From an uncultured Clostridia bacterium (GTDB taxonomy: Bacteria; Bacillota; Clostridia; TANB77; CAG-508), in NCBI GenBank assembly GCA_947628425.1, contig CANQZV010000005.1:1-38631 (forward strand): 38,631 nt of DNA, read 5' to 3'. Under the pieces are notes generated by a model that saw only the letters and a list, made by a program, of their open reading frames with translations, was not told where the DNA came from and did no database searches. Shown one piece after another: positions 1,468 to 37,676 of this stretch (position 1 is its first letter; the number at the start of each line of letters is the position of its first letter). Both the position numbers and the translations under genes were made by a program.

Positions 1468-2721
1468 TTATTCAAATTCTATTATGCTATCAAATATTGA
1501 GTCAGCATTTAATTCTACTGTTTTTTCTTCTCCTGTTTTCATATTTTTTATTTTAGCAGTATTATTTTTTATTTCTTCTTCTCCAATTACAAGCAGATTT
1601 TCGGCTCCTATTTTATTAGCATATTTTAGCTGAGCATTAAAGCTTCTTGAGCATATGTCTGTTTCTACTACAATATATTTTCTTAATGTTTCTGCAATTT
1701 CTAATGCCTTTTTCATTTGATTTTGTTCCATTGTTGCAATATATAATTCTGTTTTAAAGTCTTCTGGTTGTTTTTCTTCTATTAATGACAATAATCTTTC
1801 TTCTCCAGCTGCAAAACCTACTGCAGGTGTATCTGCTCCATCTAATTCTTTAATTAATCCATCATATCTTCCACCTGCTAGTACAGTATAACCATCTTTC
1901 TGAGATATAAATTCAAATACTGTTTTAGTATAATAGTCTAACCCTCTAACAATTCCCGAATCCACATCATAATTAATATTTAATTGTTTTAACATATTCT
2001 TTACATTTTCAAAATGTTCTTTACATTCTTCGCATAAATAATCAAGAATAACTGGTGCACCTTTATTTAATTTTTTACATTTTTCTTCTTTACAGTCTAA
2101 TATTCTCATTGGATTTTTATCTAATCTAGATTTACATGTACTACAATACATATTAATATTTTCATTTACAAATTCTTTTAATACTTCTTGATATTTTTTT
2201 CTACATGTTGGACACCCAATTGAATTAATTTTTAATTTTACATCTTCTATTGAAATTTTTTTAAGAAATGTATTAGCAATATTAATAGCTTCTATATCTG
2301 CTAAATATGATGATGTTCCAATAATTTCACATCCAATTTGATTAAATTCTCTATATCTTCCTTTTTGCACATTTTCATATCTAAACATAGGCATTTTATA
2401 CCACACTTTATAAGGTGATGGTTTTGAAAATAATCCATTTTCTATATATGCTCTTACAATACCTGCTGTTCCTTCTGGTCTTAATGTAATACTTCTTCCT
2501 GCTTTATCATTAAAAGTATACATTTCTTTTTGAACAACATCTGTTGTATCTCCTACTCCTCTTTCAAATAACTCTGTATATTCAAAAGTTGGTATTCTTA
2601 TTTCTTTTAAACCAAAATTTTCAAAAGTTTCTTGTGCAGCTTCTTCTATTAATTGCCATCTGTAAGATTCATCTGCAAGAATGTCTTTTGTTCCTTTAGC
2701 TTTTTGTATCATATTTTTCAC
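1468..2721 (-). CDS. hisS: Histidyl-tRNA synthetase
   Basis: KAKGTKDILADE, TLRPEGTAGIVRAY, MFRYENVQKGRYREFNQIGCEIIG, GIVRGLDYYTKTVFEF class II aaRS motifs. ATG at 2712 with an AAAGGAG site is a better start than the GTG at 2721. Confidence 0.96.
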   Translation of the reverse strand: MKNMIQKAKGTKDILADESYRWQLIEEAAQETFENFGLKEIRIPTFEYTELFERGVGDTTDVVQKEMYTFNDKAGRSITLRPEGTAGIVRAYIENGLFSKPSPYKVWYKMPMFRYENVQKGRYREFNQIGCEIIGTSSYLADIEAINIANTFLKKISIEDVKLKINSIGCPTCRKKYQEVLKEFVNENINMYCSTCKSRLDKNPMRILDCKEEKCKKLNKGAPVILDYLCEECKEHFENVKNMLKQLNINYDVDSGIVRGLDYYTKTVFEFISQKDGYTVLAGGRYDGLIKELDGADTPAVGFAAGEERLLSLIEEKQPEDFKTELYIATMEQNQMKKALEIAETLRKYIVVETDICSRSFNAQLKYANKIGAENLLVIGEEEIKNNTAKIKNMKTGEEKTVELNADSIFDSIIEFE

Positions 2722-2794
2722 TCCTTTACAATATATCAGTTTTTAGTTATATGTTAAAGTTATGTTTTTTAACTTTTGTTATTTTATTTATATC

Positions 2795-3445
2795 TTAATA
2801 ATCTTTTCTTGGTTTTAATTCAAAATAAATTGGTTTTTCTTCTTTTATCATTGTAGATTTTCCATGTCCTGGATATACAATTGTATTTTCTGGTAACACT
2901 ATCAATTTATTAGTAATACTTTCAATAATACTTTCAAAATTTGATGTTGGTAAATCTGTTCGTCCCCATGCTCCTCGAAATAGTGTATCGCCAGAAAATA
3001 GTAAATTATACTCTGATAAATATAAACTTGTAGATCCATTTGTGTGCCCTGGTGTATGAATTACTTTGAACTCCATATTTCCAATATGAATTAAATCATT
3101 ATCATCTACTCTTGAGTCTGCTTGTAATATTATTTCTGGAAGTCCAATATAAGTTGCTAAATTTATACTATCTTTATTTAAATTTTCTGCTTCTATTCTA
3201 TGAATTAATATTGTTCCACCAAAAGTTTCTTGTATATCATTTACAGCTCCTATATGGTCAGCATGGCAATGAGTTAAATAAATATATTTTAATTTTGCGT
3301 CTAATATTTTTAACATTTCAGCAATTTTTTCTGCTTCTCCACCTGGATCAATTACCATTGTTTCTTTTGTTTCTTCATCTTGAACAATATAACAATTGGT
3401 TGGTTCTACAAAACCAGTATTAACTTTTAATCTCTTTAATATCAT
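2795..3445 (-). CDS. MBL-fold metallo-hydrolase (glyoxalase II-like)
   Basis: THCHADHIGA motif, HTPGHTNGSTSLYL, FSGDTLFRGAWGRTDLP, VYPGHGKSTMI. Confidence 0.92.
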   Translation of the reverse strand: MILKRLKVNTGFVEPTNCYIVQDEETKETMVIDPGGEAEKIAEMLKILDAKLKYIYLTHCHADHIGAVNDIQETFGGTILIHRIEAENLNKDSINLATYIGLPEIILQADSRVDDNDLIHIGNMEFKVIHTPGHTNGSTSLYLSEYNLLFSGDTLFRGAWGRTDLPTSNFESIIESITNKLIVLPENTIVYPGHGKSTMIKEEKPIYFELKPRKDY

Positions 3446-3495
3446 TTGTAATCTCCCTCGTATAATTACTTTCTTATAATTTTTAGTATCAGTTA

Positions 3496-5730
3496 TTATT
3501 TTTTACGTTTAACTTCATAAACACTATCAACTTTTCTCAATGCTTTTAAAATTTTATTTAGTTCATCTATATTTTCTACTTCAATTTTAATATCTGTTAT
3601 TGCAATCTTTTCTTTTGTTGCTCTTGCATTAACACCCATGATTTTTGTTTTTAAGTTTGATAATTCTTTTATTATATCTGCCAACAATCCATTTCTATCA
3701 TTTGCAAATATTTCTATATCTACAGTATATGATGTTTCTTTGTTTTCATTATACCATTCTACATCTATCATTCTATTATCTTCTTGTAATAATTCTTTTA
3801 CATTGACACAATCTGTTCTGTGTACAGATACTCCTCTACCTTTTGTTATATAACCAATAATTTCATCTCCTGGTACAGGATTACAACACTTTGAAAGTTT
3901 AACAAGACAATTATCTATACCTTTTACAATAATACCATTATTAGAAACATTTCTATTAATTTTTTTTGTTTTACTTAGTTCTTCAATTTTTTCTTCTATA
4001 TCTAAATCTTTGTGCTCTTTTCTATATTCTTCTAATATTTTAGAAATAATTTTAGAAGGAGAAATTGCTCCAAAACCAACTGATGAATACATATCATCTA
4101 ATGAATTATATTTATATCTTGTTAGCATAGCATTAATATATTCTTGTTTATATAATTCAGTTTGATTCATGCCTATTCTTTTAATTTCTTTATCTATTAA
4201 ATCTTTTCCTCTTATAATATTCTCTTCTCTATCTGCTTTTTTAAACCATTGCTTAATTCTATTTTTTGCTACAGTAGTTTTTACATATTTTAACCAATCT
4301 CTACTTGGTCCTTTACTATTTTCTGATGTTACAATTCCTACTATATCTCCGTTTTTTAATTTTGTAATAATAGGTACCATTTTACTATTTACTTTACAAC
4401 CTACCATTTTATGCCCTATTTGTTCATGAATACTATAAGCAAAATCTATAGGAGTTGCACCTTTGGGTAATACTTTTATATCTCCTTTAGGTGTAAACAC
4501 ATATACCTCATCTTCAAATAGTTCTGTTTTTAAAGTATTCAAAAATTCTTCTGGGTCTTGCATATCTTTTTGCCACTCTAAAGATTCTCTAAGCCATGCT
4601 AATTTATCATCTTTAACTTCAACAACTGATTTTTGATTTTTATTAGCTTCCTTATATGCCCAATGTGCAGCAATACCATATTCTGCAACTCTATGCATAT
4701 CCCAAGTTCTTATTTGTACCTCAAATGGAGTACCTTTTGGACCTATTAAAGTTGTATGTAATGATTGATACATGTTTGATTTTGGTACAGATATATAATC
4801 TTTAAATCTTCCTGGCATTGGGTTATATAATTCGTGTACAATTCCTAAAGCTGCATAACAGTCTTTTACAGAATTTACTAATATTCTAAGAGCAAATAGG
4901 TCGTAGATTTGATCTAGGGTTTTATTATCTCTTTTCATTTTTCTATATATACTATATAAATGTTTTGCTCTACCAGTAACTTCTGCATCTATATGCTGAG
5001 TTTTTAATTCTTCACGAATTTTATCCATTATTTTTTCTATAAATACTAATCTTTCTTCTCTTTTTTTATCTATTCCATCTACAATTTCTCTATAATCTTC
5101 TGGATATAAATATTTAAAAGATAAATCTTCTAATTCCCATTTTAATGAGTATAATCCTAAACGATTAGCAAGAGGAGCATATAAATCCATTGTTTCTTTT
5201 GCATTTGCAATTTGCCTATCTCTTGTTAAATATTTTAATGTTCTCATGTTGTGTAATCTATCTGCTAATTTAATTAAAATAACTCTTATGTCTTTTCCCA
5301 TTGCTAAGAACATTTTTCTATAATCTTCAACTTGTTGTTCTTGTAAGGTTGTATACTGTTGCAATTTTCCTAGCTTTGTTACACCATCAACCATATCTGC
5401 AATTTCTTGTCCAAATTCATTAATAATGTCTTCATGAGTAATATCTGTATCTTCAACTACATCATGTAGCAATGCAGCACAGATTGTACTTTCATCTAAT
5501 TCAATAGTTGCCAAAATGTAGGCTACTTGAAGTGGATGAATAATATATGGCTCCCCAGATTTTCTAAGTTGATTTTTATGTTTACTATCAGCAAATTCAT
5601 ATGCTTTTAAAATTAATTTTGAATTTAATTTTTTATTGTATTTTTTCATTTCATTAATAACATCTGTAATTTCTACATTTTTAAAATCTGACATAACTTC
5701 ACCTCTATTTTTTAGTAGAATAAACAACAT
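3496..5730 (-). CDS. relA: RelA/SpoT bifunctional (p)ppGpp synthetase/hydrolase
   Basis: HD domain (ALLHDVVEDT), synthetase domain (DLFALRILV), TGS (VYVFTPKGDIKVLPKGATPIDFAYSIHEQIGHK), CCNPVPGDEIIGYITKGRGVSVHRTDC, C-terminal ACT. True start likely MSDFKNVE. Confidence 0.95.
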   Translation of the reverse strand: MLFILLKNRGEVMSDFKNVEITDVINEMKKYNKKLNSKLILKAYEFADSKHKNQLRKSGEPYIIHPLQVAYILATIELDESTICAALLHDVVEDTDITHEDIINEFGQEIADMVDGVTKLGKLQQYTTLQEQQVEDYRKMFLAMGKDIRVILIKLADRLHNMRTLKYLTRDRQIANAKETMDLYAPLANRLGLYSLKWELEDLSFKYLYPEDYREIVDGIDKKREERLVFIEKIMDKIREELKTQHIDAEVTGRAKHLYSIYRKMKRDNKTLDQIYDLFALRILVNSVKDCYAALGIVHELYNPMPGRFKDYISVPKSNMYQSLHTTLIGPKGTPFEVQIRTWDMHRVAEYGIAAHWAYKEANKNQKSVVEVKDDKLAWLRESLEWQKDMQDPEEFLNTLKTELFEDEVYVFTPKGDIKVLPKGATPIDFAYSIHEQIGHKMVGCKVNSKMVPIITKLKNGDIVGIVTSENSKGPSRDWLKYVKTTVAKNRIKQWFKKADREENIIRGKDLIDKEIKRIGMNQTELYKQEYINAMLTRYKYNSLDDMYSSVGFGAISPSKIISKILEEYRKEHKDLDIEEKIEELSKTKKINRNVSNNGIIVKGIDNCLVKLSKCCNPVPGDEIIGYITKGRGVSVHRTDCVNVKELLQEDNRMIDVEWYNENKETSYTVDIEIFANDRNGLLADIIKELSNLKTKIMGVNARATKEKIAITDIKIEVENIDELNKILKALRKVDSVYEVKRKK

Positions 5731-5741
5731 TTACAAAAATG

Positions 5742-7451
5742 TTATATTGATTTCATAATATCTTTTAAATTAAACTGAATATCTTCAATACCATTAAAAG
5801 AATTTATTTCCAATGTTCCTACTATATCAACTTTATCTCCTATTAAAAATTCCTCAGCTCTATATCCCATATTAAATCCAATTGCATTCATAATATGGTT
5901 ATTCTCTGTTTTTAATGTTAACTTCATATGTTTTCCATCTGTTAAAACTCTAATTGAATCTACTTTTAAGTTTTTATAAGCTATAAAAGGACATTTATTT
6001 GCTTCACCATAAGGTTCTAATTTTTCTAATTCTTTTACATATTCTATTTTTAACTCTTTTTCTGTTATTAATTTATCTATGTTAATAATTGGAACAATTT
6101 CACTTATGTTTGAATTATCTGCATATTTTTGAAAAGCTTTTTTAAAGTCATTAAATTTTTCTTTTGATACACTTAATCCAACTGCCATTTCATGGCCACC
6201 ATATTTTTCCAAAAATTTGCTATTTTCACATAATGCTTTATGCAAATCAAAACCAGGTATGCTTCTTCCTGAGCCTTTTCCATTTTCACCTTCAAAACAT
6301 ATAAGAATACTTGGTTTAAAATACATATCTGTTATTTTAGATGCGACAATTCCAATTACTCCGTGATGCCAATTATCTCCAGATAATACTATAGAATTTT
6401 GGTTATTTATATTTTCTTCGTTTATTTTACTTAATGCCTCTTCAAATATTGTTTTTTCTATATCTTGTCTACTTTTATTATATTCATTTAATTTTTCTGT
6501 TAAATTTATTGCTTCTTGTTTATTATTTGTTAAAAATAACTTTAATGCTTCATCGGCATGTCCCATTCTTCCACATGCGTTAATTCTTGGAGCTACTCCA
6601 AAAGATATACTCATGGAATTTATTTTTTTATAGTCAATACTATCTAATAAGGTTTTTAATCCAATGTTTTTAGTTACATCTATTAGTTTTAGTCCCAGCT
6701 TTGCAATAACTCTATTTTCATCAATAAGTGGAACAATATCTGAAATTGTGCCTATACAAACTAAGTCTAAATATTTTAAATATTCTTTTTCATCTAAGTT
6801 AAGTTTTATTCCTATTGCTTGTATTAGTTTAAAAACAACTCCTACTCCTGCAAGTTGATTAAATGGATAGTTACTGGTTTTAATTTTTGGATCTATAACA
6901 GCAACTGCATTAGGTAATTCATCTAAAGGTTCATGATGATCTGTTACAATTGTTTCTATTTTAAGTGAATTAGCATAACTAACTTCCTCTAAACCAGAAA
7001 TACCACAATCAACTGTAATCATTAATTTATAACCTTTTTTATTTATTTCATCAATTGCTTCTTTATTTAATCCATAACCTTCATCTAATCTATTTGGAAT
7101 ATATACTCCTACATTTAAGTTTCTTTCTTCTAAAAATTTTTTTAGAACAGATATACTTGTAATTCCATCTACATCATAATCTCCATATATTATTATTTTT
7201 TCTTTTTCTTCTATTGCTTTTATTATTCTATTTACAGCAAGCTCCATACCTGGTAATAAAAATGGATTATAAAAATCGTTTCTAGTTGGTTCTAAAAAGA
7301 TTTTTATTTTTTCATCTTCTATAATATTTCTTCCAACTAAAATTGTTGCTAATAACTCATTTATATTAAATTTATTTTTTATTTCTTCTATTTTTTTTGT
7401 GTCTACTTCTTTATATACCCATTTCTTATTCATATAAATCTCCCAAAACAT
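5742..7451 (-). CDS. recJ: Single-stranded-DNA-specific exonuclease RecJ
   Basis: YGDYDVDGITS, VTDHHEP, DIVPL, GRMGHADEA, ASKITDMYFKPSI, GSGRSIPGFDLHKAL. True start probably MNKKWVYKE. Confidence 0.95.
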   Translation of the reverse strand: MFWEIYMNKKWVYKEVDTKKIEEIKNKFNINELLATILVGRNIIEDEKIKIFLEPTRNDFYNPFLLPGMELAVNRIIKAIEEKEKIIIYGDYDVDGITSISVLKKFLEERNLNVGVYIPNRLDEGYGLNKEAIDEINKKGYKLMITVDCGISGLEEVSYANSLKIETIVTDHHEPLDELPNAVAVIDPKIKTSNYPFNQLAGVGVVFKLIQAIGIKLNLDEKEYLKYLDLVCIGTISDIVPLIDENRVIAKLGLKLIDVTKNIGLKTLLDSIDYKKINSMSISFGVAPRINACGRMGHADEALKLFLTNNKQEAINLTEKLNEYNKSRQDIEKTIFEEALSKINEENINNQNSIVLSGDNWHHGVIGIVASKITDMYFKPSILICFEGENGKGSGRSIPGFDLHKALCENSKFLEKYGGHEMAVGLSVSKEKFNDFKKAFQKYADNSNISEIVPIINIDKLITEKELKIEYVKELEKLEPYGEANKCPFIAYKNLKVDSIRVLTDGKHMKLTLKTENNHIMNAIGFNMGYRAEEFLIGDKVDIVGTLEINSFNGIEDIQFNLKDIMKSI

Positions 7452-30129: not shown

Positions 30130-30166
30130 AAAAGGTATAATAAAGATTACCTTTATTATACCTTTT
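30130..30166 (-). terminator. Intrinsic terminator after the lysozyme-like gene
   Basis: 16-bp perfect stem AAAAGGTATAATAAAG / CTTTATTATACCTTTT; overlaps the stop codon. Confidence 0.85.
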
Positions 30167-30857
30167 TAGTTGCTGTAATTATTTGACTCATTCTACCATA
30201 TACTAAATTTATCCATGTACCTGATGGACAAAATTTTTTTTGCACTCCTGCTAGTGTTTTTCCTCCATAAAATTTTCCACCTGGTGTTAAATAGTTATTA
30301 TGTAATTTTTGAGCTGCAACTTCTAAACCTTGTTCTGTAGAAGAATAATGAATTAATTTTCCATTTAACATTAAACTAATATAATTATGAGTTCTTCTAT
30401 GGTTTTGAGCTATATTCCAACCAGACTCTGCAGAAATTAATCCGCAGAAAAATATTTCATTAATTTGATATTTTTTACATAAATCATATATTAAATCTGC
30501 ATTATTATAAAAGAATTTAGTTGTATCTTGTGATACTTTATTTATTAATTTTTTAAAGTCTGATTTTGAAAGCCCTGTTCTTTTTGTTAAATCCATATTC
30601 TTACTTATTTTAACATTTTTTATTTGTGTACTTTTAACTTTTTGCTCTATTTTTTTAGTTTTTGTTTCACTATTTGATTGTATAGTGTTTCTTGTTATAT
30701 TTTCTTTTCCTCTTGATGTAATATTAGAATTTTCTCTTATATAAATATCTTTAAAATTTGTTTTTTTATTTCTTATTAATTTTTCTATATTTGTTTCTTC
30801 TACAATTTTTATTTCTTTTATTCTATCTTTCGTAGCTGTAATGCTATTTGCATTCAA
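30156..30857 (-). CDS. Exported lysozyme/glucosaminidase-like protein
   Basis: LIYDLCKKYQINEIFFCGLISAESGWNIAQNHRRTHNYISLM...GLEVAAQKLHNNYLTPGGKFYGGKTLAGVQKKFCPSG resembles lysozyme-fold peptidoglycan hydrolases. The listed TTG start omits an upstream signal peptide (see findings). Confidence 0.75.
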   Translation of the reverse strand: MNANSITATKDRIKEIKIVEETNIEKLIRNKKTNFKDIYIRENSNITSRGKENITRNTIQSNSETKTKKIEQKVKSTQIKNVKISKNMDLTKRTGLSKSDFKKLINKVSQDTTKFFYNNADLIYDLCKKYQINEIFFCGLISAESGWNIAQNHRRTHNYISLMLNGKLIHYSSTEQGLEVAAQKLHNNYLTPGGKFYGGKTLAGVQKKFCPSGTWINLVYGRMSQIITATKKV

Positions 30858-31056
30858 TGTATTACTACTACATAAGATTATTAAAAATATAGTTGCAGGA
30901 ATAATTAATAATCCAATTTTTAGTAATACATTTTTCGATTCATACTCTATAATAATTCCTCCTTTTTTAGAGCAACTATTTAATTATAGCATGAATTTCT
31001 AAATTTGTCAAATTTTTCAAACATTTTTACGAAAATTCGTTTTGTTAATATGTATA

Positions 31057-31767
31057 TTAACCATTATTTATTATCTTCATAGGATTTGTTATTGTTAATT
31101 TTTTTAATTCTTCTTCACCTATTATCTTTTTTATTCTTTTTTTACTTTCTTCAACAGATGAATATAATGTATTTTTTTTGTGTACATCTGATGCTAAAAA
31201 GCTTATTAATCTCTTTTTTAGAAGCTTTTCTATTGCCTTTTTAGGCTCTTCACCATATAAACCTAATACACTTCCATAATTTGATTGAAAAAGAACTCCT
31301 TTTTTATGTAATTTTTCTACTAACTCAATATTATTTTGAAAGTAATTATATCTTTCTGGATGTGCTATAATTGGAATTTTATCTATATTAAATATTTTAA
31401 AAATAATTTCATCTAAATATGTAATATTTGTGTTCATTGGTAATTCAAATAAAACATATTTACTATTATTTAAAGGAGATACTATATTTTCATATATTAA
31501 TTTGTCCATATCTTCGCTTATATAGATTTCATTTCCAACATAAACTTTTATTGGTATATTTAGTTGATTAAGTGCATCCTGTATAGACTTCACCCAGTAT
31601 TCTCTTATTTGTGTATTAATTTCGTAATATTCTTTTATATAATGTGGTGTTAAAATAATATCTGTAAAACCTGCATTAACAGCTTCTTTAAAAATTTCAA
31701 ACGTTTCTTCTATACTTTTTGACCCATCGTCTATATTTGGAATTATGTGTGTATGTATATCTACCAT
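31057..31767 (-). CDS. CpsB/CapC-type PHP-fold protein tyrosine phosphatase
   Basis: MVDIHTHIIPNIDDGSKSIEET, TPHY, VYVGNEIYI, IIAHPERY, LASDVHKKNT. Confidence 0.93.
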   Translation of the reverse strand: MVDIHTHIIPNIDDGSKSIEETFEIFKEAVNAGFTDIILTPHYIKEYYEINTQIREYWVKSIQDALNQLNIPIKVYVGNEIYISEDMDKLIYENIVSPLNNSKYVLFELPMNTNITYLDEIIFKIFNIDKIPIIAHPERYNYFQNNIELVEKLHKKGVLFQSNYGSVLGLYGEEPKKAIEKLLKKRLISFLASDVHKKNTLYSSVEESKKRIKKIIGEEELKKLTITNPMKIINNG

Positions 31768-31785: not shown

Positions 31786-32679
31786 CTATTGCATTTTATT
31801 TTTTTCATTTTTTAAATAGGTATTTAAACTAGATAATATTTCATCAGTTTTTGTTATATTCTTTTCTTCCTGTTTTTTTCTGTTATTTTCATTATTTGAA
31901 GTATTTGATTCCTTTCTTGGTATATTATTTAAATTTTTAACATAACTACTTGAACTTTTTTTAGAAGATGGTTTTAAATTAGTTTTATGTCCATAATAGT
32001 AATATCTATCTTGGTATTGTTTCGTATTTACTTCCATTTTATTAATAACAACACCAATTACTTTTCCTCCAACATTATCAATATCTTTTTTTACTTTATT
32101 TAAATCTTCCATTTTTGTTCTATTTTGAGCAGTAACTATAATTGTTGAATCTACAAATCTTGATAAAATAACAGAATCAGTTACAATAAGAGAAGGTGTT
32201 CCATCTATTATAACAATATCACATATTTGTTTTAATTCACTTAGTAAATGAATCATTTTTTCTGAAGCAATTAATTCAGATGGATTTGGTGGAATATTTC
32301 CTGATGGTAATAAATATAAATTTTCTATTTCTGTACTTCTTATATATTTTGCTAATTCTTTTTCGCCTTCTTCTCCTTCTGAACTAACACCTGATAAATA
32401 ATTTGATAATCCTGGTTTTTGAGTTGCTCCAAAAATACTGTGTTGTCTACCTTTCCTCATATCGCAATCTATTAAAACAACTTTTTTATTTGCTTGAGCA
32501 AATGTAGCTGCAAGATTTGCTGCAATTAAACTTTTACCTTCTCCTGGTACAGTAGAGGTAATTAATAAGGTTTTTAAGTTTTTATTTGTATTCATAAATT
32601 GTATGTTTGTTCTTAAAGTTCTAAAAACTTCGGAAATTGGAGATTTTGGATCTTTTTTTACAATTAATTCTTTTTCCAT
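31786..32679 (-). CDS. BY-type tyrosine kinase CpsD/CapB family
   Basis: SPISEVFRTLRTNIQFMN, TVPGEGKSLIAANLAATFAQANKKVVLIDCDMRKGRQH, IIDGTPSLIVTDS, YQDRYYYYG tyrosine cluster. Confidence 0.93.
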   Translation of the reverse strand: MEKELIVKKDPKSPISEVFRTLRTNIQFMNTNKNLKTLLITSTVPGEGKSLIAANLAATFAQANKKVVLIDCDMRKGRQHSIFGATQKPGLSNYLSGVSSEGEEGEKELAKYIRSTEIENLYLLPSGNIPPNPSELIASEKMIHLLSELKQICDIVIIDGTPSLIVTDSVILSRFVDSTIIVTAQNRTKMEDLNKVKKDIDNVGGKVIGVVINKMEVNTKQYQDRYYYYGHKTNLKPSSKKSSSSYVKNLNNIPRKESNTSNNENNRKKQEEKNITKTDEILSSLNTYLKNEKNKMQ

Positions 32680-33386
32680 TATCTTTTACCTCCTTTTCTA
32701 AAATTCGAATCAAATTCTGGCACTTGCGCTAAAACAAGCAATCCTGTAGATTTTTCAATATCTTGTTCTGTTTTAACTGTATTATCTAACATATTAGCTA
32801 TTAGTACTTTCATAACTGCAATTACAATTCCTATAAAAGCAAATATAACAATATCTTTTAAATGATTAACATTATATGGTGTACTTTCTACCTCTGCAGA
32901 ATCAACAATATAAACATTATTTATATTATATATTTCTGATACTTGTGTGCTAAAAACTTTTGCTATTTCATTTGCTATATTACATGCATAAGTTGGATTT
33001 TCATTTGCTACTGATATTTCTATAACTTCAGTATCATTTTCAGAACTTACAGTAATTTTATTTTTTAATTGTTCTTCTGTAATATCTTTAATATTTAAAT
33101 TTGTTATTACCTCTCTTAGTACTGTTTTACTTGTCATTAGTAATCTATATGTAGAAACCAAATTTGAATTTAAGGTTAATTCTGTTTGTGTGATAGCGCT
33201 GCTGTTATTTGTTTTTTCATCATTTGTTGTTGCTAAAACTAATTGAGTTGTAGATTTATATTCAGGTGTAACAAAAATAAATGAATAAATAATCCCTACT
33301 ACTATAAATATAAGAGTAATTAATATAATTTCAATTCTTTTACTCCAGAAAATTTGAAATAATTCTTTTAAATCTAACTCTTCCAT
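32679..33386 (-). CDS. Wzz/CpsC-type chain-length determinant / BY-kinase activator
   Basis: ELFQIFWSKRIEIILITLIFIVVGIIYSFIFVTPEYKSTTQLVL, C-terminal TM, tail VKTEQDIEKSTGLLVLAQVPEFD. Confidence 0.9.
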   Translation of the reverse strand: MEELDLKELFQIFWSKRIEIILITLIFIVVGIIYSFIFVTPEYKSTTQLVLATTNDEKTNNSSAITQTELTLNSNLVSTYRLLMTSKTVLREVITNLNIKDITEEQLKNKITVSSENDTEVIEISVANENPTYACNIANEIAKVFSTQVSEIYNINNVYIVDSAEVESTPYNVNHLKDIVIFAFIGIVIAVMKVLIANMLDNTVKTEQDIEKSTGLLVLAQVPEFDSNFRKGGKR

Positions 33387-33387
33387 C

Positions 33388-34029
33388 TTATATTTCCTCC
33401 AATGTATTTGTTTTTGTAATTGTGAATAATAATGTTGCTATATATAAAGTTAAAGCTATTGGCATTGTATATGTTGTAAAAGGTATTTGAGTAATAACTA
33501 TAATACTAAAATATATACCTTCTATTAATACCAAATTAATAAGTATTTTAAATACTTCTCTTATTATATTCTTATTTTTAATATTTCGAATTACAATATA
33601 AACAATACTTATTATTGTTGCTAATATTGTAGGAAACATATAAGGTGTTATAACTGTACTAATTCTGGTAGAAGGTATTGGTATTTCGTACAATTCAAGT
33701 TTTTCTACATCTATATTATATTTTTCAGATATTTTTGTTTTAAAATTATCCAATTCTTCTTGTGTATAATTTTCTAATTTAACAGAAAAAACTTGGTTTA
33801 ATTTTTCAACATCTTGAACTAGAATTTTCCTATTTTGAAATGTTTCTTTTGCAATTGTTTCAATATCAGTTTTATTATAACCTTTACTTATCATTACTTC
33901 AATTCTAGTTCCTTTTTTATATGCAATAGATTTATTAAATCCTACTACAAATAACATTATAATTCCTGCTAAGATAATTAATACTATCAGCGATAAAATT
34001 ATTTTTTTTATCTTAGATGTTTTTTTCAT
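33388..34029 (-). CDS. Divergent SecF-like membrane protein
   Basis: N-terminal TM then FNKSIAYKKGTRIEVMI (cf. SecF 'GIDF.GGT..EV'), soluble P1-like segment, then about four hydrophobic helices. Remote similarity by eye. Confidence 0.5.
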   Translation of the reverse strand: MKKTSKIKKIILSLIVLIILAGIIMLFVVGFNKSIAYKKGTRIEVMISKGYNKTDIETIAKETFQNRKILVQDVEKLNQVFSVKLENYTQEELDNFKTKISEKYNIDVEKLELYEIPIPSTRISTVITPYMFPTILATIISIVYIVIRNIKNKNIIREVFKILINLVLIEGIYFSIIVITQIPFTTYTMPIALTLYIATLLFTITKTNTLEEI

Positions 34030-34185
34030 TTTTTTTAATCATTCCTTTCTTTTAGTTCAGAGCAAAAGCATCATTATTAATATATTTTTTATATGTTGCA
34101 TATTGGTTTATGTGCCAAATTTACAACAAAAAGTTTGAATACAATAAATCTTATCTAATAGAGATTTTTCTATTAGGTAAAAATT

Positions 34186-35592
34186 TTAAGCCTGTCTATT
34201 ATTTTTAACTGTTAGTAATGTAACAGTAAAGAGTATATTTCCTAACATTAGAACAATCCATCCCCAGAATAGTAATAATCCCATAGTATTAATTACTGTC
34301 ATATTACTAAATGCAAATACTACAAATAAAATTAGAATAATAGATATTAAATCTATTGTTTTTAAATAAGCTATTTTTGTATTTTCAATAATTGTTTTAT
34401 CTGTATTATTTTTAATTTCTTTTAATAAATTATTTATTAAACATGTATTTAAAATTATTAATCCTACAATTGCAGCTATAGAGTTAAAAGATAAAGCAAT
34501 ATTGGTTAGTCTAATTAATATAGTAATTAATGCAATATTTGTAATAGTACCAATTGTGGCTAATAATCCGTTTACTTTATATTTTATAATAAAATAAATA
34601 CATATAACAACCATTATAATTGCAGTAATTAATAATAATGTATAAAATACAATATCATTTTCTGTTGTATTAATATATTCTTCTGCTGAAATAGTATATA
34701 CAACTGGTGTTTTTCCAATGTTTGATAATTTTGATACAATTGTTGCTGTATTTAGTGTTGAATTTACAGTTGTAGTAGAAGTAAGATCTTTTGCCAATGT
34801 TATTCTTAATGTTTTTGCTGTTAATAATATATCATCATATGATACTTCTTCTATTTGTTCTTCATCAAATTCTACTACAAATTTATTAACTGTAGTTTCT
34901 CCATCTTCATCTGTACTGTTTTTATATGCTTCCATGTTATTTACTTTTTCTATTCCTAAATCTGTTAATTTTAGACTCATATAAATTACATAGCTTCCAT
35001 CTTCTGTAGTAGCATATGTTGTTTCTACATTTTTTACAATTGAGGTATCTGATGCATCTAGAATAATATCGCTTGTGTTAGAATCTTTTAATTGTAATTT
35101 TCCTTCCATTGGTAATATTGATTCTATATCTTCAGGATATTCGTCTTCAAAATTCAAAACAATTTTACCTGTTTTTTTATCTAAATCTATACTATATTGA
35201 TCTGCTTGTAGAAAATTTAATCTTTCTTTAAAAACTTTTAAAGATTTTTCATAATTTTCTGTAGTTAAATTTTCTTTTGAATTAACTGGTTCTTCTTCTG
35301 TTGTATAGTCTTTCGTATTTTCTATATCTGATTCAGATATTTCATTTCCATCTTTATCATAATAGGTCGTATTAACGCTATCATCTACTTCTAATTCTAA
35401 AATTGTTGCTCCTTTAAGGTCTGAAGCTAATTTATAGTTTGGAATTTTATTTATATATTGATTAAATTGTTTTATATAAATTCCTCCAAAACCAATTAAA
35501 ATAATTAACATGCATATAAGTATAATAAGCACTAATTTTAAGCTTTTTCTATGTTTCAATTTTATTCCTCCTAATTTTATAATCAAAGACAA
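34186..35592 (-). CDS. Divergent SecD-like membrane protein
   Basis: YKLASDLKGATILELEV (cf. SecD 'GLDL.GG..L.L'), ENYEKSLKVFKERLNFLQA, PMEGKLQLKD, IIKYKVNGLLATIGTITNIALITILIRL...LSFNSIAAIVGLIILNTCLINNLLKEIK (cf. SecD TM segments). Likely start is TTG at 35559 (GGAGG, 7-nt spacing). Confidence 0.65.
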   Translation of the reverse strand: MSLIIKLGGIKLKHRKSLKLVLIILICMLIILIGFGGIYIKQFNQYINKIPNYKLASDLKGATILELEVDDSVNTTYYDKDGNEISESDIENTKDYTTEEEPVNSKENLTTENYEKSLKVFKERLNFLQADQYSIDLDKKTGKIVLNFEDEYPEDIESILPMEGKLQLKDSNTSDIILDASDTSIVKNVETTYATTEDGSYVIYMSLKLTDLGIEKVNNMEAYKNSTDEDGETTVNKFVVEFDEEQIEEVSYDDILLTAKTLRITLAKDLTSTTTVNSTLNTATIVSKLSNIGKTPVVYTISAEEYINTTENDIVFYTLLLITAIIMVVICIYFIIKYKVNGLLATIGTITNIALITILIRLTNIALSFNSIAAIVGLIILNTCLINNLLKEIKNNTDKTIIENTKIAYLKTIDLISIILILFVVFAFSNMTVINTMGLLLFWGWIVLMLGNILFTVTLLTVKNNRQA

Positions 35593-35812: not shown

Positions 35813-36316
35813 TTATTTAGTGATTGATAAAATTTTTAACTGAATAATTCCTCCTGGTGTATTTGCCTCTACTACTTGATTTTTCTTAGCACCTAATAAT
35901 GCTGCTCCAATTGGTGATTCATTAGATATTTTGTTAGCTGATAAATCTACCTCTGTTGAACCAACAATAGTATATTCAATATCTTCATCAAATTCTATAT
36001 CATGTACTTTTACTTTATTTCCTATTTGTACAATTTTTGTATCAATTTCTGATTCATCTATTATTCTAGCATGTCTTAATTTATTTTCTAAATCTGCAAT
36101 TTTTGTTTCATTTGCAGCTTGTGCATTTTTAGCTTCATCATATTCAGAATTTTCTGATAAATCTCCAAAGCCTAATGCAACTCTAATTCTTTCTGCAATT
36201 GCTGATCTTTCCTCAGTTTTTAAATAATCTAATTCTTTTTCTAATTTATCATATCCTTCTTGCGTTAATAGTATTTCTTTTTCTTCCATGATAACATTCA
36301 TTCCTTTCTTGCACAA
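35813..36316 (-). CDS. greA: Transcription elongation factor GreA
   Basis: LTQEGYDKLEKELDYLKTEERSAIAERIRVALGFGDLSENSEYDEAKNAQAANETKIADLE...ISNESPIGAALLGAKKNQVVEANTPGG. Likely start MEEKEIL. Confidence 0.96.
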   Translation of the reverse strand: MCKKGMNVIMEEKEILLTQEGYDKLEKELDYLKTEERSAIAERIRVALGFGDLSENSEYDEAKNAQAANETKIADLENKLRHARIIDESEIDTKIVQIGNKVKVHDIEFDEDIEYTIVGSTEVDLSANKISNESPIGAALLGAKKNQVVEANTPGGIIQLKILSITK

Positions 36317-36350: not shown

Positions 36351-36379
36351 ATATTAAACCCAAAAAAAACATTTGTCAA
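36351..36379 (-). promoter_or_regulatory. Sigma-A-type promoter for greA
   Basis: Minus strand TTGACA-17 nt-TAATAT; the -35 overlaps the stop codon (TGA, 36376-36378) of the upstream gene. Confidence 0.75.
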
Positions 36380-37326
36380 GCTTTTTGCATTATAAACTTA
36401 AATTCTTTTGTATTAATTACTCCACTATTTCCAATTAAATTTAAAATATTAATTTTATCTTCTTCTATTTTATTTATCATTTTTTCATAATTATCTGTTT
36501 TCCAATTAATTATGCTTTCATATAAATAAAGCATATCATATTGATTTAATATGTTTTCTTTTCTAAATATATCTTTTATATTATTATTAAAATCAATTCT
36601 ACATGAATTAACAACAATTCCATTAAATAATCTAGATTTTATTTTAATGTTTTTATTGGAATTAACTATAATTGCATTGTTATTAATTAAAAAATCATTT
36701 ATTTGAATTTCATTAAAATCTAAATTTACAATTAACTTTGAATTTACTAAACTTTTTGTATAACTATTTGAAAATTGAATTGCTATTCCTTCATCATTAT
36801 ACAACTCATTTTCTATTTTTTTAAATTGAAACATCTTTTGTGTAACAATTTTAATACTTTTATATTGCAAAGCTAGGTTCTTAATAATAAATTGATGTAA
36901 AATAGAATTTTTGTTACATAAAATACTAATGTCGCACATGTTTGGTTTAGAACATTGTAGTTTATGAATGTACTCTAATTCTTTAAATAATAATATTTTC
37001 TTTATTTTTTGTCCATCAAAATATGGTAAATTATACTTTATTAAAAGTTCTAATATATTTTCATTTAATAAATCATTTGAAATAACAAATTTACTATTTG
37101 CTATTTTTTTAATTTTAGTCATTTTCTTAATAATATTATTCATTTTTTTCTTTTTGGCTTTTTCTTTTATTGGTAAAATACATACTTTAAAATTATTTTC
37201 TTTAATTGTAGGAATATTAAATTTATATTTAAAGAAAAAAATTAAATATTTAAAATAATACAAAAATTTATTTTTAATAACATCTTCATATTTATAAACT
37301 TTTTTTAAATAAATAACATTTTGCAT
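36376..37326 (-). CDS. Uncharacterised protein, C-terminal half possibly Rossmann-like
   Basis: Intact ORF; start placed at MQNVIYL (GAGAGG 7 nt upstream). Segment CDISILCNKNSILHQFIIKNLALQYKSIKIVTQ has a beta-alpha-beta look. Family not recognised. Confidence 0.65.
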   Translation of the reverse strand: MQNVIYLKKVYKYEDVIKNKFLYYFKYLIFFFKYKFNIPTIKENNFKVCILPIKEKAKKKKMNNIIKKMTKIKKIANSKFVISNDLLNENILELLIKYNLPYFDGQKIKKILLFKELEYIHKLQCSKPNMCDISILCNKNSILHQFIIKNLALQYKSIKIVTQKMFQFKKIENELYNDEGIAIQFSNSYTKSLVNSKLIVNLDFNEIQINDFLINNNAIIVNSNKNIKIKSRLFNGIVVNSCRIDFNNNIKDIFRKENILNQYDMLYLYESIINWKTDNYEKMINKIEEDKINILNLIGNSGVINTKEFKFIMQKA

Positions 37327-37676
37327 AAAAAAACCTCTCATATTATTTATAATTATATGAGTGGTTGTCTTTTTCTATTACATATTTATTTTATTTTTAG
37401 TTTTTATAATTAGTTATTCACTCTTCACTATATTGATGAGGTGAAATTAAAATAATAAAAATATGAAAGTTGTTATTTTTAGTATTTTATCAGTATCCAT
37501 TTCAGTTTTTCTTTAAAGTTGTTCAAGCAATTATTGCATAATAGATACAAACTTTTTATCGCTATTTCTTTGATATTCTTTGTTAGAATATTTATCCAGC
37601 ATATAATATAGCATACTTACATATTATTAAAGTATATAATATTTTTTATAAATTGCAACAAAATTTATAAAAAAAA

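Follow-up and report, generated by a model that had tools for sequence, protein, structure and literature searches.

What the two genes studied here encode, and what their products could still do, is the question raised by this locus. Descriptions of SecDF have it pulling on exported proteins with the energy of protons, and treat a central Asp/Arg pair as its core. The window, that is, the whole 38,631-nucleotide stretch of DNA analysed from an uncultured Clostridia bacterium, carries a SecD-like and a short SecF-like frame next to genes for surface polymer synthesis. The original prediction had proposed either a specialised RND-like translocase for that polymer system or a degenerate housekeeping SecDF. 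Both frames are present where it had placed them, on the minus strand, among the following genes:

31057..31767, minus strand: CpsB/CapC phosphatase (Pfam CpsB_CapC, 1.3e-60), neighbour only
31786..32679, minus strand: BY-kinase of the CpsD type (NCBIfam TIGR01007, 1.1e-59), neighbour only
32679..33386, minus strand: wzz-like chain-length determinant (Pfam Wzz, 2.6e-19), neighbour only, outside the system
33388..34029, minus strand: secF orthologue, 213 aa, four TM helices and a P4-like domain, TM5-TM6 missing
34186..35592, minus strand: secD orthologue, open frame of 468 aa, N-terminal TM, P1-type exported domain, C-terminal TM block
35813..36316, minus strand: greA, upstream neighbour (NCBIfam greA, 1.5e-55)

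The secD and secF frames are separated by 156 nt. The probable real start of SecD is a TTG at 35559 behind AGGAGG, giving 457 aa rather than 468.

Identification of a divergent SecDF

Homology of both subunits to SecDF was significant, though far below curated cut-offs: the window SecD matched NCBIfam TIGR01129 with E=2.2e-8 and the window SecF matched TIGR00966 with E=3.4e-10 over model positions 5-180 of 279. The top NCBIfam match for SecD was SecDF_plasm (NF046001, 2.7e-9), which differs from it in being a fused model of 878 positions. A Pfam search returned no useful match for either protein. With a profile built from 13 members of the window's family (f1), canonical SecD proteins from sister family f5 were retrieved at 1e-31 to 1e-47.

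AlphaFold2 models agreed with the layouts read from the sequence. The SecD model (pLDDT 74.7, with some low-confidence stretches) has one N-terminal TM helix, a large exported domain and a C-terminal TM block, while that of SecF (pLDDT 87.7) has four TM helices (residues 2-28, 123-148, 155-180 and 188-212) around a small alpha/beta domain. In the Foldseek comparison that the original prediction had called for, the top PDB match of both models was the SecDF of Thermus (5xan for SecD, E=1.2e-11; 5xap for SecF, E=9.5e-6). As whole-chain TM-scores are low (0.33 for SecD, 0.43 for SecF), the evidence for a SecDF/RND fold rests on Foldseek rank and E-value. An MMPL/HAE RND exporter identity was rejected, SecDF ranking first by profile and by fold each time.

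A second, canonical secDF was also sought in the same genome (1.23 Mb, 98% complete), and no other SecD or SecF was found there. One further RND-type match (C3) was rejected as another SecDF, being an MMPL protein. The pair shares with the SecD/SecF of the Sec translocase (TIGR01129, TIGR00966; T. thermophilus 5xan/5xap) its fold, its gene order and its P1 and P4 domains, as well as the conserved clostridial locus and a single copy next to canonical SecY and YidC, but it lacks the GLD..GG and ER motifs and has four rather than six TM helices in SecF.

An ancestral locus with a private neighbour

The canonical clostridial locus reads tgt-yajC-TIGR04086-secD-secF-recJ (L168-L171, partial in L172-L174); in L172 and L173, recJ is followed by relA. 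In the window's family the order is tgt-x-yajC-TIGR04086-HD-secD-secF, complete in L068 and L084 and without HD in L078; other family loci, such as L073 and L075, preserve it in part. As the family order matches the canonical one, the divergent pair is placed as an orthologue at the ancestral position. In the window genome, recJ-relA-MBL-hisS lies on one strand at 1468-7451, far from secDF at 33-36 kb, so this locus was split by rearrangement. By profile, fold and gene order, 33388-35592 is thus best described as a vertically inherited, single-copy secD-secF pair.

Most family loci carry the HD-domain gene immediately upstream of secD (for example L084:5967-6641 and L077:8412-9071), but the genus of the window lacks it; its product is a possible functional partner. 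The proximity of greA to secD is kept in four relatives (L062, L064, L067, L083), in which a 321-aa frame adjoining greA in the window (36376-37341, without significant Pfam match) is conserved as well. On the other side, a perfect 12/12 match to a sigma-70-type promoter with an extended -10 (30983-31011, minus strand) sits between cpsB and a gene at 30156-30857 with a weak NCBIfam match to a peptidoglycan hydrolase.

Only 1 nt, not the 2 nt first reported, separates the end of secF (33388) from the start of wzz (33386), with no terminator-like site, as would suit a specialised RND-like translocase serving the Wzz/BY-kinase system. The conservation of this linkage across relatives was the check proposed for that reading, and the regions retrieved around secDF from 23 other family genomes, three of the same genus included, yielded no homologue of wzz, the BY-kinase or cpsB. 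The secF-wzz contact is private to the window genome. Since the link occurs there only, not even in the rest of the genus, while the secD-secF pair itself is family-wide, a polymer-specific translocase is unsupported and very improbable. The alternative of a degenerate housekeeping SecDF fared better: the absence of a second secDF, the ancestral locus in relatives, the SecDF folds and the family-wide presence all support it.

Loss of the proton-relay residues and truncation of SecF

In SecDF, D519 of SecD and R247 of SecF are located at the centre of the proton channel; deprotonation and reprotonation of D519 are critical for proton transport, and mutation of D519 or R247 locks the protein in the I form (review PMC8669966). 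In the window SecD, ASDLKGA replaces GLD.(S/A)GG, LNTCLINNLLKEI replaces AVDANVIIFER, and the central Asp of TM4 is absent from the local sequence LNTCLINN. The C-terminal end of the window SecF precedes the NDT..V.DR and RT..TS motifs.

This degradation, already remarked on in the original prediction, is not a chance feature of one genome, as the same losses recur in all 63 family secD/secF pairs aligned against 6 canonical ones from the window's order. With residues aligned across ~20-30% identity, the TM4 Asp of SecD (equivalent to E. coli D519) was present in 6/6 canonical and 0/63 family sequences, where the column is never acidic; the alignment of this helix could be 1-2 residues off, Asn being usual two columns before the Asp column (47/63) and some acidic residue lying in the TM4 core in 8/63, at non-equivalent places, but none of these puts an Asp back in the canonical column. 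The TM4 Asp of SecF (equivalent to E. coli D213, a relay residue in Thermus and E. coli SecDF) showed the same distribution, 6/6 against 0/63. The TM5 Arg of SecF (R247 equivalent), found in all six canonical sequences, is absent from all 63 family members because their SecF stops after TM4. Alignment therefore recovered none of the three residues in the family.

The truncation is equally consistent. Family SecF proteins usually measure 206-227 aa, have four TM helices and match the SecF model mostly over positions 2-190 of 279, while SecF from 28 f2 and f5 genomes matches the whole model length and passes the cut-off. The exported part of SecF is more variable, the membrane helices staying in each case: genus g37 has lost the P4 domain (126-135 aa), and genera g11 and g35 have an enlarged exported part, in g35 clearly by P4 duplication (261-291 aa; loci of the three genera, L146, L147, L150, L151 and L154-L156). 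Constraint on the exported part is therefore uneven, since one genus has lost P4 and others carry it in duplicate.

Could ion drive persist through a rewired relay, for example between SecF Glu/Gln170 and the near-invariant SecD Arg361? Position 361 of SecD is Arg or Lys in 63/63 family sequences and position 170 of SecF is Glu or Gln in 57/63, which would favour such a relay. However, no replacement acid is conserved anywhere in the TM regions of the 63 pairs. Glu and Gln alternate at position 170, as would suit a hydrogen-bonding residue more than a protonated one; Arg361 sits where TM3 ends instead of mid-membrane, and the TM5-6 part of SecF is gone. We consider a rewired relay unlikely, and regard the two positions as candidates for new structural contacts.

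SecDF states in sister families and other clostridia

Within the window's order, SecDF is canonical in f2 and most of f5, motor-less in f1, and undetectable in f3, f4 and part of f5. The canonical proteins of f2 and f5 are homologous to those of the window's family but keep all motifs, with a SecF open frame of 293-357 aa. Genomes of f3 and f4 in which two profiles found no SecD or SecF (G026, G027, G030, G031, G034, G035 and others) have a completeness of 95-100% and do encode SecY and YidC.

In a class-wide sample, SecF was canonical in 189/243 genomes. Inspection of the weak matches revealed a second clostridial family, f64, with full-length but eroded SecDF (loci L117, L118 and L119). Like the window's family, its three members (G312, G328, G344) have all lost the SecF Asp and two have lost the SecD Asp; in contrast to it, their SecF is full length (316-363 aa) and G328 keeps the SecD Asp. 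The erosion in f64 is probably independent of that in the window's family.

Two genomic losses were rejected as causes. YajC scored over the cut-off in 5/25 f1 genomes and in none of 15 sampled f2-f5 genomes, and so also went unfound in those sampled genomes of f2 and f5 whose SecDF is canonical. An ATP synthase c subunit (F or V type) was not found in the window genome or in most sampled genomes of the order (found in 4/25 f1, 3/3 f2 and 0/12 f3-f5); there is no simple link with relay loss, because f5 keeps canonical SecDF without a c subunit.

The scarcity of yajC in the family, together with the erosion of all canonical motifs, the duplication or loss of P4 in some genera and the entry of the HD-domain gene into the operon of most members, would also fit a repurposed pair that no longer serves SecYEG and has taken on another envelope task related to lipid, wall or small molecules. 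Yet secD and secF are still neighbours in their original order where the ancestral translocase locus lies, and no new partner gene is constant in all members, the HD gene being missing from the window's genus. Repurposing therefore seems a rather unlikely outcome.

Retention under purifying selection

The divergent SecD is present in 94/97 family genomes of at least 90% completeness (122 profile matches less the 28 that are canonical). Among the three exceptions, G011 has no SecY in its assembly either, so a contig is likely missing there. SecY and YidC are canonical in the family. Between close species, dN/dS was 0.13-0.31 for SecD (78-91% identical proteins) and 0.07-0.29 for SecF (84-94% identical), and both genes are intact in >25 genera at ~30% identity. 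Intact frames and dN/dS values well below 1 demonstrate, at the level of sequence, that the genes are not relics. A pair in decay and heading for loss could be imagined from the sister lineages in which SecDF is undetectable, and from G016 (L076:5600-6460), where secD is present and directly downstream of it a rhodanese-like frame replaces a recognisable secF; against the conservation just described, this is highly improbable.

A probable proton-independent accessory of the translocon

In the most likely reading, to which we assign a probability of roughly 70%, the family encodes a SecDF that cannot run the known proton cycle and is maintained as an accessory assisting SecYEG independently of the PMF. 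The ancestor of the sampled members would have lost the central TM4 Asp from SecD and, from SecF, both the TM4 Asp and all sequence beyond that helix, so that the TM5 Arg went too. Once the Asp-Arg pair is gone, the I-to-super-F movement that protons are described to drive in SecDF should be impossible, and we infer from these absences that proton coupling has been lost. The exported P1 (and usually P4) domains could hold or shield the emerging polypeptide outside, while the ten TM helices of SecD and SecF would dock to the translocon. The role would probably be passive, that of a trans-side substrate holder or scaffold.

The original prediction had noted degenerate motifs but not that, across the family, the proton relay and TM5-6 of SecF have gone while both genes stay under purifying selection. 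A search of mostly open-access literature for SecDF with lost relay residues found nothing on this case. The window's family, small-genome uncultured gut Clostridia, has dropped the relay pair and one third of the SecF membrane helices, with both genes under purifying selection and SecY and YidC normal. Retention of both genes under selection after relay loss implies a second, motor-independent role of SecDF, one that E. coli mutants do not readily reveal. We hold it somewhat more probable than its converse that a whole family keeps a motor-less SecDF under selection, that a PMF-independent function suffices, and that a second clostridial family has independently begun to lose the same motor. 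The window's order offers a comparative series, canonical in f2 and most of f5, motor-less in f1 and none detected in f3 and f4, and the family itself would be a natural test of SecDF function without the proton gradient as its power source.
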